This document shows positions 42,063-49,012 of a DNA stretch of 64,000 bases, piece after piece. The translations under genes and the position numbers were made by a program. This DNA is from Oscillospiraceae bacterium (GTDB lineage: Bacteria > Bacillota > Clostridia > Oscillospirales > Ruminococcaceae). The stretch's first letter is position 1; every line of letters begins with the position of its first letter. The stretch lies in contig JAGASN010000038.1 of assembly GCA_017847875.1 (NCBI GenBank), forward strand, positions 1-64,000, given 5' to 3'. The notes beneath the pieces are model-generated. The model did not search any database, was not told the origin of the DNA, and saw only the letters and a list, made by a program, of their open reading frames with translations.

Positions 42063-42875
42063 GTGAAAAAGTTTGACGGGCACGTCCACAGCGACTGTTC
42101 ACCGCGAGGCGTTCATTCCATGATGAGCCTTTGTGAACAGGCGGTAAACCGCGGACTTTTCGGTTTTGCCGTAACGGATTGCTGTGATTGTGACCGCTTT
42201 GATGAAATGCAGTTTTCCGAAAGGGTTCGCGAATCCGTTTACTGCGTATATAAAGCCCGCTCCGTTTTCGAAGATTCTCTTGTAATTTCCAATGGAGTTG
42301 AAATCGGACAGCCCCTTGATAATATTGAAAAAGCGGACAAAATCATCGGAAGCGTTCCTTTCGATATTGTTCTCGCTTCCGTAAAAAAATATCCGGACGG
42401 AAGAAAACTCAGCGAAATAAATTATTCCGAACTTTCAGAAAATGAAATTGTAAGACACATGGAATCTTATTACAATCTCCTTCTTGAAACTTCTAAATGG
42501 AATAATTTTGACGTATTGAGCCAGCTTACCCTTCCGATGAGATATGTCAACAGCGAATCCGCGCCCTATTTTTCCATTCGCCATTGTGACGATATAATTG
42601 AAACAATTCTTAAAAAACTCGTTGAAGACGGAAAAGCCCTTGAGGTAAACACTTCCGCTCTTCGCGGAAAACTTAATATGATCCTTCCCCCGGTAAGATA
42701 CCTCAGAATGTTCCGAGAACTCGGCGGCGAATTTGTTACCATAGGTTCCGGTTCCCACAGCTGCGGTTCTCTCGGCGCAGACATTGGCGAAGGAATAAGC
42801 CTTGTTCATGAGGCAGGTTTTTCTTCCTATTGCTATTTTGAAAAACGTAAACCCGTTCTTATAAAAATTGATTAA
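42063..42875 (+). CDS. PHP-domain phosphoesterase
   Basis: The protein (about 270 residues) has the PHP domain metal motifs: GHVHSDCS near residue 6, a VTDCCD segment near 38, NGVEIGQ near 80, EVNTSA near 198 and SGSHSC near 228. It is related to histidinol-phosphatase (HisK) but no his gene is near. The start is uncertain: GTG at 42063 lies about 15 bases after GAGGG, whereas an in-frame ATT (42054) has optimal spacing. Precedes an Lrp regulator by 13 bases. Confidence 0.85.
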   Translation: MKKFDGHVHSDCSPRGVHSMMSLCEQAVNRGLFGFAVTDCCDCDRFDEMQFSERVRESVYCVYKARSVFEDSLVISNGVEIGQPLDNIEKADKIIGSVPFDIVLASVKKYPDGRKLSEINYSELSENEIVRHMESYYNLLLETSKWNNFDVLSQLTLPMRYVNSESAPYFSIRHCDDIIETILKKLVEDGKALEVNTSALRGKLNMILPPVRYLRMFRELGGEFVTIGSGSHSCGSLGADIGEGISLVHEAGFSSYCYFEKRKPVLIKID

Positions 42876-42888
42876 AGGAGATTTCAAT

Positions 42889-43374
42889 ATGGATCAGCTT
42901 CTTAAACTTCTTGAACAGAACGCAAAACTCACCACCGAACAGCTTTCCGCCCTTCTTGGAAAAACCGAAGAAGAAATTTCCGCCGCGGTAAAAGAATATG
43001 AAAAAGAACACGTTATTATCGGATATAACGCTCTCGTTAACTGGGAAAAAATCGATCCGAACGATTGCACCGCCGTCATTGAACTTAAAGTTCAGCCCAA
43101 ACGCGATTACGGTTATGACGAAATTGCCGCCGAAATAATGCGCTTTGATGAAGTTCAGACCGTATGGCTCATGAGCAGCTCCAGCTATGACCTTTCCGTA
43201 ATAATCCGCGGACACAGCTTCAAGGATATTTCCATGTTTGTTGCAAAACGCCTTGCTACCCTTGATTCCGTAACTTCCACCGCAACAAACTTTGTTCTTA
43301 AGCGTTATAAAGAACATTTCTTCAATTTTACCGACGAGGTAAAAGACGAAAGGAGGCACCTGAATATTGATTGA
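42889..43374 (+). CDS. Lrp/AsnC-family transcriptional regulator
   Basis: The 161-residue protein has an N-terminal winged HTH (MDQLLKLLEQNAKLTTEQLSALL region) and a C-terminal RAM ligand-binding domain (ELKVQPKRDYGYDEIA...). It probably controls the aminotransferase gene that follows and overlaps it by eight bases; the same pair (AlaR-AlaT) occurs in Bacillus. AAAGGAG precedes the ATG. Confidence 0.9.
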   Translation: MDQLLKLLEQNAKLTTEQLSALLGKTEEEISAAVKEYEKEHVIIGYNALVNWEKIDPNDCTAVIELKVQPKRDYGYDEIAAEIMRFDEVQTVWLMSSSSYDLSVIIRGHSFKDISMFVAKRLATLDSVTSTATNFVLKRYKEHFFNFTDEVKDERRHLNID

Positions 43375-44539
43375 TTACAACAAAGTGCTTTCCGAAAAAG
43401 TTGCTGAACTAAAACCTTCCGGAATCAGAAAATTCTTCGATCTTGCCGCTGAAGTCAAGGACGTTATCGCCTTAACCATCGGAGAACCGGATTTCAAAAC
43501 TCCTTGGCATATCCGCGAAGCAGGAATAAAATCCCTTGAAAAAGGCAGAACCTGGTATACCGCAAACGCCGGTCTTATTGAGCTTCGCCAGGAAGCTTCA
43601 AAATATCTTAAACGCAGATTCAGCCTTGATTATGATGCAAAGGATATTTTTATAACCGTCGGCGGCTCCGAAGCTATTGACCTAACCATTCGCGCCATTA
43701 TCGAAAACGGCGATGATATGCTTCTTCCGATTCCTTCCTTTGTTTGCTATGACCCTATTTGCCGCCTTGCTGGAGGAAATGTTATTCCGATCGAAACAAA
43801 ACGTGAAAACGATTTCCGTCTTACTGCGGAAGAACTCAGAGCGGCAATTACTCCGAAAACAAAACTCCTCGTCCTTCCTTTCCCTAACAACCCGACAGGC
43901 GCAGTTATGAGAAGAGAACATCTTGAGGAAATTGCCGAAGTTCTTCGCGGAACCGACATTATGGTTCTTTCCGATGAAATTTATGCGGAACTTACCTATG
44001 GCGGTGAACGCCATGTTTCCATTGCCGAAATTGACGGCATGAAAGAGCGCACCATTATTGTAAACGGTTTTTCAAAAGCCTATGCTATGACCGGCTGGAG
44101 ACTCGGCTATGTTGCCGGACCTTCCCCGATAATTCAGCAGATGCTTAAAATTCATCAATACGCGATAATGAGCTCTCCCACCACAAGTCAGTATGCCGCC
44201 GTTGTTGCAATGCGCGATTGTGACAACGAGGTTGAGGAAATGAAAAAGCAATATGATATGAGAAGACGTTTTCTTGTAAAAGCCTTTAACGATATGGGTC
44301 TCGATTGCTTCACTCCCGAAGGAGCATTTTACGTTTTCCCCTGCATAAAATCCACCGGACTTTCCTCCGAAGAATTTTGTGAAAAGCTTCTTCACAGCAA
44401 AAAGGTTGCTGTTGTTCCCGGCGGAGCTTTTGGTTCTTCCGGGGAAGGTTTTGTCCGCGTTTCCTATTCCTATTCTCTTGATCATCTTATGGAAGCGACA
44501 AAGCGAATCAAAGAATTCCTTGAGGAACTTGAAAAATGA
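43367..44539 (+). CDS. Class I/II PLP-dependent aminotransferase (AlaT/YugH-like)
   Basis: The 390-residue protein is a fold-type I aminotransferase: TIGEPDFKTP at the N-terminus, PFPNNPTGAV near residue 165, SDEIYAEL, NGFSKAYAMTGWRLG with the PLP lysine near 230, and the C-terminal Arg in GFVRVSY. The pairing with an Lrp regulator suggests alanine or aromatic amino acids. The start is TTG (43367), ten bases after AGGAGG and inside the Lrp gene. Overlaps the next gene by four bases. Confidence 0.92.
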   Translation: MIDYNKVLSEKVAELKPSGIRKFFDLAAEVKDVIALTIGEPDFKTPWHIREAGIKSLEKGRTWYTANAGLIELRQEASKYLKRRFSLDYDAKDIFITVGGSEAIDLTIRAIIENGDDMLLPIPSFVCYDPICRLAGGNVIPIETKRENDFRLTAEELRAAITPKTKLLVLPFPNNPTGAVMRREHLEEIAEVLRGTDIMVLSDEIYAELTYGGERHVSIAEIDGMKERTIIVNGFSKAYAMTGWRLGYVAGPSPIIQQMLKIHQYAIMSSPTTSQYAAVVAMRDCDNEVEEMKKQYDMRRRFLVKAFNDMGLDCFTPEGAFYVFPCIKSTGLSSEEFCEKLLHSKKVAVVPGGAFGSSGEGFVRVSYSYSLDHLMEATKRIKEFLEELEK

Positions 44540-45882
44540 AAAGCATAAGCGTTAAGGCGCCGGCAAAAATCAATCTATTTCTTGATATTGTCGGAAGGCT
44601 TCCGACCGGATATCACGAAATCGAATCGATTATGCAAACCATTGACCTTTTTGATTATGTTAAAATTTCGGAAGATGAAGAAATCTCCGTTTTTTGCAGC
44701 GACAGCGCCCTTGATGGCGATTCAAACATTGCTTTCAAAGCCGCAAAACTCTTTTTTGAAAAAACGGGAATTGATTCCGGGGTTAAAATCGAAATTGATA
44801 AACGGATTCCGAAACAGGCAGGTATGGCCGGCGGAAGCGCCGATGCCGCCGCTGTTCTTTTTGGAATGAACAAAATTTTCGGTTTTCCCCTTTCCGAAGA
44901 TGAACTTTGTGATTTGGGCGCAAAATGCGGAGCCGACGTTCCCTTTTCGATAACCGGAGGAACAAAGCTTTCCGAAGGAATCGGCGAAAAGCTTTCGTCT
45001 GTTCCGGAAATTCCGGATTGCTGGATTGTTACCGTAAAGCCTGATATCAGTATGAGCACGCCGGAAAGTTATAAATATTATGATGAGCACGGACTTTTTG
45101 CCCTTGAGCACCCCGGAAAATCCGGGATTATCGGCGCATTGGAAGAAAACGATATTTATCCCCTTTCCAAAAAGCTTTATAACGTTCTTGAGCATACCGT
45201 TGAAGACCCGATTATCAAAGAAATCAAAAATGATATGCTCTCTCTTGGTGCTCTCGGTTCAATGATGACCGGAAGCGGTACGGCTGTTTTCGGAATTTTT
45301 GATTCCGTTCAGAAAGCTGTTGCCGCAAAAAACTATCTTTCCGGAAAATTCAGCTCTGTTTTTCTTTCAAGACCTACAAAATCCGGCGTACAAACAGATA
45401 AAAGCGCCGCGGTTTATGAAAAATTTGCCGAACTCGGAATAAAATATGAACGTGTTGACCACCCGGCTGTTTATACCATGGAAGAAATGGATTCCCTCGG
45501 AATTTTCAAAAAAGGTGTTGTCGGAAAGAACCTTTTTCTTCGTGATAACAAAGGTCACAGACATTTTCTTGTTTTTGTTTTCGGAGATAAACACGCAAAC
45601 CTTGAATCCATTCAGAATGAACTCGGAATCAAACACGTAAGCTTTGCTTCCGCCGAAAGACTTGATAAATATCTCGGTCTTACAAAAGGTTCCGTTTCTC
45701 CCCTCGGAGTAATAAACGATTCCTCTGCGGCTGTTGAATTTATAATCGACAGCGAATTCAAAGATTACCCATGCGTCGGTGTTCACCCGAACCAGAACAC
45801 TTCAACCGTTTGGCTGACTTTTGAGGATTTGATAAAAGTTATTCGTGAAAACGGAAACAAAATCGATTTTATAAACATCTGA
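44536..45882 (+). CDS. ispE: IspE kinase fused to a YbaK/ProX-type aminoacyl-tRNA deacylase domain
   Basis: Residues 1-283 are a complete 4-diphosphocytidyl-2-C-methylerythritol kinase: Lys11 in PAKINLFL, GHMP loop AGMAGGSADAAA (95-106), catalytic Asp134 in CGADVPF, GSGTA (246-250). Residues 288-448 form a second domain: GIKYERVDHPAVYTMEEM, GKNLFLRDN (Lys331), GSVSPLGV, and GVHPNQNTSTVWL, the signature of the YbaK/PrdX deacylases that remove Ala or Cys from tRNA-Pro. The open frame is continuous with no start site needed between. IspE acts in the MEP isoprenoid pathway; the deacylase in translation quality control. Such a fusion is unusual. Confidence 0.92.
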   Translation: MKSISVKAPAKINLFLDIVGRLPTGYHEIESIMQTIDLFDYVKISEDEEISVFCSDSALDGDSNIAFKAAKLFFEKTGIDSGVKIEIDKRIPKQAGMAGGSADAAAVLFGMNKIFGFPLSEDELCDLGAKCGADVPFSITGGTKLSEGIGEKLSSVPEIPDCWIVTVKPDISMSTPESYKYYDEHGLFALEHPGKSGIIGALEENDIYPLSKKLYNVLEHTVEDPIIKEIKNDMLSLGALGSMMTGSGTAVFGIFDSVQKAVAAKNYLSGKFSSVFLSRPTKSGVQTDKSAAVYEKFAELGIKYERVDHPAVYTMEEMDSLGIFKKGVVGKNLFLRDNKGHRHFLVFVFGDKHANLESIQNELGIKHVSFASAERLDKYLGLTKGSVSPLGVINDSSAAVEFIIDSEFKDYPCVGVHPNQNTSTVWLTFEDLIKVIRENGNKIDFINI

Positions 45883-45894
45883 TTGAATAATTTT

Positions 45895-45942
45895 AAAAAA
45901 ATCCGTCAATGCTTTTTTTATCAAAAGCAAAGGCGGATTTTT
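45895..45942 (+). terminator. Terminator after ispE
   Basis: Two-part hairpin: AAAAAATCCG faces CGGATTTTTT, with an inner TGCTTTT/AAAAGCA stem; it ends two bases before an ATG at 45944 in frame with spoIIR. Confidence 0.65.
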
Positions 45943-45985
45943 TATGAGTTTTTACAGATATGACGCTTACCCTAAAGGAAGGAAA

Positions 45986-46570
45986 ATGAAAGGATTCGAA
46001 AGTCTTTTGCTTATCGGTCTTGTTTTCACTTTGTTTTCTTCCGGAGTAAATAAAACCGTTGCAACCGGAAACGAAATCCGTTCCGAAACGCTTCGGCTTC
46101 ATATAATTGCCAATTCCGACAGCGAAGAAGACCAACAGCTTAAACTTAAAGTCCGCGATGCGGTTCTTGAAGCAACCGGAGAACTTTTTGCGGAAGTTTC
46201 CGGAAAAACGGAAGCTGTTGCCGCGGCGGAATATTCTGCGAACGATATAAAAGAAATTGCAGAAAAAACTATTGCAGAAGAAGGTTTTGATTATCCCGTT
46301 CAGGTCGAAGTTACCGAAATGTGGTTCGAAACAAGAAGTTATGAGGGTTTTACTCTTCCGGCCGGAGATTATGACGCCGTAAGAATAATCATAGGCGAAG
46401 GCGAAGGAAAAAACTGGTGGTGCGTGATGTATCCCGCGCTTTGTATTCCCGGCGCGGAAAAACCGCTTGAAAAATACGGTGATAATGCGGATTTTGTTTC
46501 CGGAACCGAATTTGAGATTCGGTTCGCGGTTATTGAATGGATTGAAAGCATTAAAAAGAGTTTTTTATAA
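45986..46570 (+). CDS. spoIIR: Stage II sporulation protein R
   Basis: The 194-residue protein has a signal-like N-terminus (residues 4-20) and the SpoIIR core RLHIIANSDSEEDQQLKLKVRDAVL near residue 40, then WWCVMYPALC. SpoIIR is made in the forespore, exported, and triggers processing of pro-sigma-E in the mother cell. I chose ATG 45986 (AAAGGAAGG upstream) over 45944, whose site lies in the preceding hairpin. The gene supports the endospore-forming lifestyle shown by cotJABC. Confidence 0.92.
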   Translation: MKGFESLLLIGLVFTLFSSGVNKTVATGNEIRSETLRLHIIANSDSEEDQQLKLKVRDAVLEATGELFAEVSGKTEAVAAAEYSANDIKEIAEKTIAEEGFDYPVQVEVTEMWFETRSYEGFTLPAGDYDAVRIIIGEGEGKNWWCVMYPALCIPGAEKPLEKYGDNADFVSGTEFEIRFAVIEWIESIKKSFL

Positions 46571-46586: not shown

Positions 46587-46626
46587 AAACCGTTAATGGA
46601 TTTTACCAAAATTCATTAACGGTTTT
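46587..46626 (+). terminator. spoIIR terminator
   Basis: A 12-bp stem AAACCGTTAATG (46587-46598) with CATTAACGGTTT (46614-46625), 15-base loop and short T-run. Confidence 0.7.
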
Positions 46627-46713
46627 GTCAGTTTTGTCAAATATTAAAATTCCGTCTTTTGACAAAAATGTTATAATTTTTGAATTTTTTTGGTCTAAAT
46701 TTTGAATATTCCC

Positions 46714-46743
46714 TTGACTTATTATAGTAATAATAGGTATAAT
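46714..46743 (+). promoter_or_regulatory. hppA promoter
   Basis: TTGACT (46714-46719), 18-base spacer, TATAAT (46738-46743), about 65 bases before the start codon. Confidence 0.8.
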
Positions 46744-46812
46744 AAGTTGTTGATATACAACAGTGGGCAAAATGCCCAAAATAAGAAACACGAACAGGAG
46801 TGAACAAAGCTT

Positions 46813-48849
46813 ATGGAAAATCTTCTCTATGCTGTTCCCGTTATCGGTGTCGTCGCTCTCGCTGTCGCTCTTATGCTTAAAAGCTGGATCGGCAAACAGG
46901 ACGAAGGCAACGACAGAATGAAGGAAATCTCCGGTTATATCCGTGAGGGTGCAATGGCATTCCTCGGCCGCGAGTACAAAATGGTCGCTGCATTCGCAGT
47001 TGTCCTCCTTCTTATCGTCGCAATCTTCATCAGCCCCATCGCTGCAATCGCATGCCTTTTCGGCGCTGCATTCTCTGTACTTGCAGGCTTCATCGGCATG
47101 AAAACCGCAACCGATGCAAACGTACGCACTACCAACGCTGCAAGCAAAAACGGTATGCCCGCTGCTCTTAAAGTAGCATTCCGCGGCGGCGCTGTTATGG
47201 GTCTTTGCGTTGTTGGTCTCGGCCTTCTCGGCGTCAGCGTTGTTTTCATCATCTGCAACCTTGATACCGGTATTTTCGCAAACATCACCCTTGATAACTG
47301 CGCAACCATCATCACCGGTTTCTCCCTCGGTGCTTCCTTCGTAGCACTTTTCGGACGTGTTGGCGGCGGTATCTATACCAAAGCAGCAGACGTCGGTGCA
47401 GACCTTGTTGGTAAAGTTGAAGCAGGTATCCCCGAAGACGACCCCAGAAACCCCGCAGTTATCGCAGATAACGTTGGTGATAACGTTGGTGACGTTGCAG
47501 GTATGGGTTCCGACCTTTTCGAATCCTATGTTGGTTCCATCGTTTCCGCAATTACCCTCGCAATTGCAATTCCTACCATCAACAGCGGACTTCTCGGTGA
47601 AGTTGCTCTTGATCCGGTAACCGGTTCTCTCTTCCCGCTTTTCCTTGCTGCAATCGGCATTATTGCTTCCATCATTGCTGTTTTCTTTGTTAACGGCAAA
47701 ACCAACAACCCCGCAAGCCAGCTTAACCTCGGTACTTACATCAGCTCCGCAATCGTAATCGTTGCTTCCTTCTTCCTCAGCCAGGCTTGCTTCGGAAACA
47801 TCGGTGCTTTCGTAGCAGTTGTTATCGGTCTTGTTGTCGGTGTTGCAATCGGTAAAATCACCGAGTTCTACACTTCCGGCGACTTCAAACCCGTTAAAGA
47901 GATTGCACAGCAGTGCGAAACCGGTTCCGCAACCTGCATCATCAGCGGTTTTGCAACCGGCCTTACCTCCACTGTTTTCCCGCTTCTCCTTATTGCAATC
48001 GCAATTCTCGGTGCTTACTATGCATTTGGTCTTTATGGCATTGCAATCGCAGCAGTAGGTATGCTTTCCACCACCGGTATTGTTATCGCAGTTGACGCTT
48101 ACGGTCCTATCTCCGATAACGCAGGCGGTATCGCAGAAATGAGCGAACTTCCCGAAGAAGTACGTGAAATCACCGATACTCTCGACTCCGTTGGTAACAC
48201 CACCGCAGCAGTCGGCAAAGGCTTTGCAGTTGGTTCCGCAGCTCTTACCGCTCTTGCACTCTTCGTATCTTATTCCCAGATTGCAAACCTTGAAAAAATC
48301 GACCTTCTCAGCCCCGCAGTTGTTGCAGGTCTTCTCATCGGCGGTATGCTTCCGATGCTCTTCTCCGCTCTTACCATGAACTCTGTTGGTAAAGCAGCAA
48401 ACCAGATGATCGAAGAAGTTCGCCGTCAGTTCCATGAATTCCCCGGCATTATGGAAGGAACTCAGAAACCCGACTATGCAAGATGCGTTGACATCTCCAC
48501 CGGTGCAGCTCTTAAAGAAATGCTTCTTCCCGGCGCTCTTGCAGTTGTTTGCCCCATTGCTGTTGGTCTTATCCTCGGCACTGAAGCTCTCGGCGGTCTT
48601 CTCGCAGGTTCCCTCGTAGTTGGCGTTCTTATGGCAATCACCATGTCCAACGCCGGCGGTGCTTGGGATAACGCAAAGAAATACATTGAAAACGGTCATA
48701 ACGGCGGCAAAGGTTCCGAACCCCACAAAGCTGCTGTTGTCGGCGATACCGTCGGTGACCCCTTTAAAGATACTTCCGGTCCTTCCCTTAACATCCTTAT
48801 TAAGCTCATGACCGTTGTAGCTGTTGTATTCCTTCCCCTTTTCCTTTAA
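46813..48849 (+). CDS. hppA: Membrane-bound ion-pumping pyrophosphatase, potassium-dependent type
   Basis: The 678-residue protein has about 16 membrane helices and the catalytic stretches [43 protein letters not shown] and [12 protein letters not shown]. The motif [12 protein letters not shown] carries Ala where potassium-independent enzymes have Lys, so it should need potassium; such enzymes pump Na+ or H+ using pyrophosphate hydrolysis. Codon use is strongly biased to C-ending codons, unlike its neighbours, which points to very high expression. Strong promoter and terminator; single-gene unit. Confidence 0.96.
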
Positions 48850-48864
48850 TAGGTAAATAAAATT

Positions 48865-48890
48865 AAAGCCCCGCTTTGCGGGGCTTTTTT
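48865..48890 (+). terminator. hppA terminator
   Basis: AAAGCCCCGC (48865-48874), TTT loop, GCGGGGCTTT (48878-48887), T-run. Confidence 0.92.
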
Positions 48891-49012
48891 TGTGCCAAAA
48901 AACTGCTTGTATTTTTGTTGGATTTGTCAACAGAAATTTCTTTAAAAAATAAGAAAATTTAACAAATATATGTTATACTTAAATTAAAGTATAACCCGAA
49001 AGGATTTGCGCT

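Follow-up and report, generated by a model that had tools for sequence, protein, structure and literature searches.

Bacteria with a ProRS that lacks the INS domain commonly rely on ProXp-ala instead (PMC9425024). The bacterial ProXp-ala of Caulobacter recognises the bases C1:G72 and A73, and its residue Arg80 is important for the recognition of G72 (PMC10164551). Apart from the INS domain itself, members of the INS superfamily were described in a 2024 review as consisting of a single domain; the exceptions are ProRS fusions in some protists and an added C-terminal domain in plants (PMC11295145). Fusions are also known among the enzymes of the MEP pathway, IspDF being an example (PMC13001223). 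For one of these enzymes, IspE of E. coli, Lys10 and Asp141 are known to contact the methylerythritol part of the substrate (PMC11541488). No report of an IspE-YbaK fusion, or of any fusion across the MEP and editing systems, was found in the open-access literature searched.

The gene analysed here joins these two systems. It lies in a stretch of 64,000 nucleotides from a genome of the Oscillospiraceae (contig JAGASN010000038.1), hereafter the window, and consists of a single open reading frame with an ATG start, a TGA stop and no internal stops (Table 1). The length, coordinates and residues given for it in the preliminary description of this DNA were correct, and both domains scored far above their cut-offs in one open frame. 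The gene product is predicted to be a bifunctional protein, combining an IspE kinase with an Ala-tRNA(Pro) deacylase; both activities, as well as the Ala-tRNA(Pro) substrate, are inferred.

Table 1. Features of the fused gene and its neighbourhood (positions refer to the window).
Feature	Position	Strand	Basis and remarks
Lrp/AsnC-type regulator	42868..43374	+	Upstream gene of the same run; synteny
Class I/II aminotransferase	43367..44539	+	Domain matches; synteny across the family
Fused gene ispE-proXp-ala	44536..45882	+	448 aa; coordinates include the stop codon; kept in 12 species of the genus
IspE half (predicted CDP-ME kinase), residues 1 to about 285	44536..45390	+	TIGR00154; VIA-align to 4emd
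Lys11, equivalent of E. coli IspE Lys10	44566..44568	+	Alignment to 1oj4; invariant in 12 fusions
Asp134, equivalent of E. coli IspE Asp141	44935..44937	+	Alignment to 1oj4; invariant in 12 fusions
ProXp-ala-like editing half, residues about 286–448	45391..45879	+	PF04073; VIA-align to 1vki; tree
Lys331, equivalent of Caulobacter ProXp-ala Lys45	45526..45528	+	Alignments; invariant in 12 fusions
Terminator-like hairpin	45896..45943	+	Between the fused gene and spoIIR; folding energy −21.2 kcal/mol (z −4.5)
spoIIR, conserved downstream neighbour	45944..46570	+	TIGR02837, 156.7 bits (cut-off 151.9); synteny

Residues 3–279 matched the IspE equivalog model TIGR00154 with 240.3 bits (cut-off 138.7), and the kinase half additionally matched GHMP_kinases_N and GHMP_kinases_C. 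In the alignment to the E. coli enzyme, Lys11 and Asp134 took the places of the two substrate-contacting residues. Dxr was encoded in the same genome (457.7 bits vs. a cut-off of 315.7), providing the context of the MEP pathway. The N-terminal half would be the cell's CDP-ME kinase (IspE), an essential enzyme of isoprenoid synthesis by this pathway.

The C-terminal half matched PF04073 (tRNA_edit) over residues 309–434 with 93.7 bits (cut-off 25.5). Compared to proteins of solved structure, it scored 69–75 bits with Atu3699, Caulobacter ProXp-ala and human PRORSD1 vs. 22 bits with YbaK of H. influenzae, and the YbaK model TIGR00011 gave 31.9 bits on the fused protein, under its cut-off of 153.25. 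Its Lys331 aligned with the catalytic-site lysine of the Caulobacter enzyme, and the earlier observation that both active sites are kept was thereby confirmed. Phylogenetic analysis of 59 editing domains placed all 12 fused domains in a single clade (99/98), which fell with ProXp-ala and was separated from YbaK by a well-supported branch. The order inside the ProXp-ala side was poorly resolved, and the fused clade was not firmly placed beside the characterised ProXp-ala references. By identity, the closest free relatives of the editing half (50–56%) belonged to different genera within the family. A YbaK identity, the name first given to this half, was excluded by the scores and by the presence of a separate true YbaK in the genome. 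Judged by these comparisons, the editing half is a member of the ProXp-ala group, and thus a predicted Ala-tRNA(Pro) deacylase, rather than a YbaK.

The ProRS of the window's genome (478 aa) was without the INS stretch, and this INS-less form was present in all 15 genomes of the genus. The only other PF04073 protein in the window's genome was the YbaK (contig C7), with 164 bits to TIGR00011 (cut-off 153). YbaK is the usual Cys-tRNA(Pro) deacylase. Among the PF04073 proteins of the genus genomes, no free ProXp-ala was found in any genome bearing the fusion, and in the window's genome the fused protein was the single IspE copy and the sole ProXp-ala found. A third, distinct PF04073 protein occurred in three genus genomes (L107, L109 and L110 in G009, G008 and G002, respectively); it scored under the YbaK cut-off and had a long branch. 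Four tRNA-Pro genes were found in the window's genome, of which three distinct ones were read with C1:G72 and A73, while the fourth, a tandem TGG copy, fitted the same pattern. Because the ProRS lacks INS here, the C-terminal half would take the place of this domain, as a trans-editing Ala-tRNA(Pro) deacylase doing the job that INS does in other bacteria.

The recognition of the tRNA, or the specificity, may differ in detail from that of the Caulobacter enzyme, since the positions of its Arg80 and Lys50 were occupied by His367 and Arg336 in the fused proteins. Arg80 does not define the whole ProXp-ala family, given that most free relatives had Lys or Arg at this position and human ProXp-ala has Asn (PMC10164551). 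The two replacements could point to another substrate, for instance tRNA-Pro charged with Ser, Cys or a non-protein amino acid, or to another tRNA altogether. Bacterial ProXp-ala is known to accept Ser as well (PMC11295145), and the loose placement of the fused clade relative to the characterised references would also fit such a shift. We consider a different substrate unlikely: ProXp-ala outscored YbaK by about 50 bits, a YbaK is already present for Cys, and an INS-less ProRS together with C1:G72/A73 tRNA-Pro fits the setting of ProXp-ala.

The two halves appeared to be complete proteins placed end to end. Free IspEs of relatives ended at the equivalent of residues about 283–289, and the start Met of a free editing protein (L190) aligned near residue 286, indicating that the halves were joined at their natural ends with almost no linker. 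This was consistent with a joining of genes by loss of a stop, as initially suggested. In 10 of the 12 species with the fusion, no in-frame ATG, GTG or TTG was present at residues 262–312; of the remaining two species, one had potential start codons at 263 and 265, the other at 269 and 287. In the protein of the window, translation could next begin at Met315, a start that would cut into the editing domain. In most species, the editing half would therefore be made only within the fusion, barring an unusual start. An AlphaFold2 model, for which an alignment of fused proteins and free relatives was used as input, had a mean pLDDT of 94.1 and a pTM of 0.90, with both folds intact. Model residues 1–289 were superimposed on IspE 4emd with a VIA-align Z of 40 and an rmsd of 1.6, and residues 287–448 on Atu3699 (1vki) with a Z of 23.7 and an rmsd of 1.7.

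Of the 15 genus genomes, 12 had the full-length, in-frame fusion, always at the same locus. In two others (G003 and G005), contig ends cut the locus inside IspE, and the last one (G013) had a free IspE between the same neighbours, so that 12 of the 13 species with a complete locus were fused. The preliminary description had proposed a search for the same domain order in other genomes and had regarded exclusively separate genes in close relatives as an argument against the fusion; the order was present in 11 other species genomes of the genus, and the relatives were predominantly fused. The 11 other fused proteins were 74–96% identical to that of the window. For comparison, the ProRS proteins (L165–L178) were 95–99% identical among the species of the genus with the fusion. 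According to their public records, the genomes with the fusion are separate metagenome-assembled genomes, mostly from the ruminant gut. Lys331 and the stretches KNLFLRD and HPNQN were kept in all 12 fusions. Median dN/dS values (Nei-Gojobori, 66 pairs) were 0.17 for IspE, 0.35 for the junction (residues 263–292) and 0.06 for the editing domain, and are rough values due to saturation at silent sites in some pairs, which were left out. The ratios point to clear constraint on both halves, stronger on the editing half than on the kinase. The fusion is genuine, old and under purifying selection.

Outside the genus, the whole protein was used to search samples of 198 genomes of the family, 394 of the order and 398 of the phylum, and the editing half to search samples of 397 genomes of the family and 295 of the order; neither query revealed another full-length fusion. 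The loci obtained from the genome_contigs scan, the reach of which is limited to close relatives, likewise contained none. Four long ORFs with an editing domain (L132, L134, L143 and L146) were rejected as candidates, since each resembled a free gene whose start Met immediately precedes the domain, with an unrelated upstream reading.

The neighbourhood of the fused gene was older than the fusion. The TGA of the aminotransferase gene overlaps the ATG of the fusion (ATGA at 44536–44539), and the order Lrp regulator, aminotransferase, ispE and spoIIR was common to many genera of the family, with the editing gene absent. The aminotransferase was a generic class I/II enzyme that reached no NCBIfam cut-off among the matches listed. 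A connection between this enzyme and Ala-tRNA-Pro, which had been thought conceivable in the preliminary description, was not supported, because its adjacency to ispE occurs family-wide with no adjoining editing domain and is therefore uninformative on the fusion. A hairpin similar to the one behind the fused gene was present 3′ of the free ispE in G013. In the window, the hairpin stops directly at the first possible ATG of spoIIR (45944), indicating that the true spoIIR start probably lies further downstream. Beyond spoIIR, a membrane pyrophosphatase gene was present (46813–48849; NF001960, 1008 bits), with an open frame of 775 residues (46603–48930) opposite it over its whole length, which most likely is a by-product of codon use.

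A free-standing proXp-ala gene would have landed between ispE and the hairpin and spoIIR in the ancestor of most of the genus; the ispE stop would then have been lost and the two genes joined in frame, once, after the G013 line had split off. Gain after this split would be the simplest history, with the events in the order in which we infer them, and a loss of the editing domain in the G013 line is a possible alternative. No editing gene adjoined ispE in the loci of relatives that were checked, and an intermediate preceding the fusion was thus not seen. In G013 (L015, G013:C28), ProXp-ala was not found, whereas an INS-less ProRS and a YbaK were both present, indicating that a species of this genus may live without this editor.

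Overall, we consider it probable that a single ancient fusion gave rise to a bifunctional protein with two independent activities. Its retention would follow from the fact that no second copy of either half was found in the genome and that the editing half lacks a separate start codon. The two activities would most likely run side by side, sharing expression alone.

Instead, the halves could be coupled: the CDP-ME/ATP binding state or the dimer form of the kinase half might influence the editing half or the way it binds tRNA, or the kinase might serve the editor as a dimerising or tRNA-binding scaffold. The pTM of 0.90 for a linkerless two-domain chain of 448 residues suggests a defined packing, in which the halves are predicted to be held in a fixed arrangement; this would amount to more than mere joint expression. 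Moreover, the fusion was conserved over the genus although the junction tolerates change. There are precedents for an effect of attached parts, as the C-terminal domain of plant ProXp-ala adds dimerisation and tRNA binding (PMC9425024), and editing in Trypanosoma is faster when ProXp-ala is fused to ProRS (PMC11286415). Yet the junction was the least conserved part of the protein, IspE and proline editing have no metabolite in common, and the fusion was confined to one genus, and we regard coupling as rather improbable. Even more doubtful is the specific form in which the kinase half physically organises or regulates the proofreading of proline tRNA and so links the state of isoprenoid precursors with the fidelity of translation; if true, this would be an arrangement not known from any protein of the INS superfamily.

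A decaying, inactive editing half carried as a passenger is very improbable, as no point was found in its favour, its dN/dS was under that of the kinase half and its conserved residues were retained in all 12 fusions. An assembly or sequencing error, or a stop lost in a single strain, is practically negligible: the window's genome is a draft of 53 contigs, but the in-frame fusion recurred under purifying selection on separate contigs and records of 12 species genomes, that of the window included, which excludes an artefact.

The reading we prefer, one old fusion with two independent activities, would make this locus a case of neutral gene joining that persists because both parts are needed. 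As a lasting fusion with a metabolic kinase and the sole copy found of both functions, it would show that a trans-editor can stay attached to an unrelated enzyme for as long as a genus exists. The locus also offers a natural test of the effect of a fused partner on tRNA editing, with an unfused, editor-less member of the genus available for comparison.

Compared to known IspE (TIGR00154; PDB 4emd and 1oj4), the kinase is full-length and has the glycine-rich GHMP motif and both substrate-contacting residues, but its C-terminus bears an editing enzyme where free IspEs stop at about this junction. With ProXp-ala (PDB 5vxb and 1vki; human PRORSD1, 8huz), the editing half shares the fold, the catalytic-site lysine and the HPxxN motif, and the setting of an INS-less ProRS and C1:G72/A73 tRNA-Pro within one genome; it differs in not being free-standing and in having His for Arg80 and Arg for Lys50. 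YbaK (TIGR00011) has the PF04073 superfamily in common with the fused domain, which falls far under the YbaK cut-off, and the true YbaK of the window's genome is encoded elsewhere (C7, L115). The ProXp-ala–ProRS fusions of Plasmodium, Trypanosoma and Leishmania (PMC11295145, PMC11286415) likewise combine ProXp-ala with a second enzyme in a single polypeptide. Their partner, located at the opposite end, is the synthetase whose errors are corrected, whereas here it is a metabolic kinase. In IspDF (PMC13001223), as in the present protein, a MEP enzyme is fused to an enzyme other than that of its next step, but both halves of IspDF belong to the MEP pathway, unlike the editing half described here.
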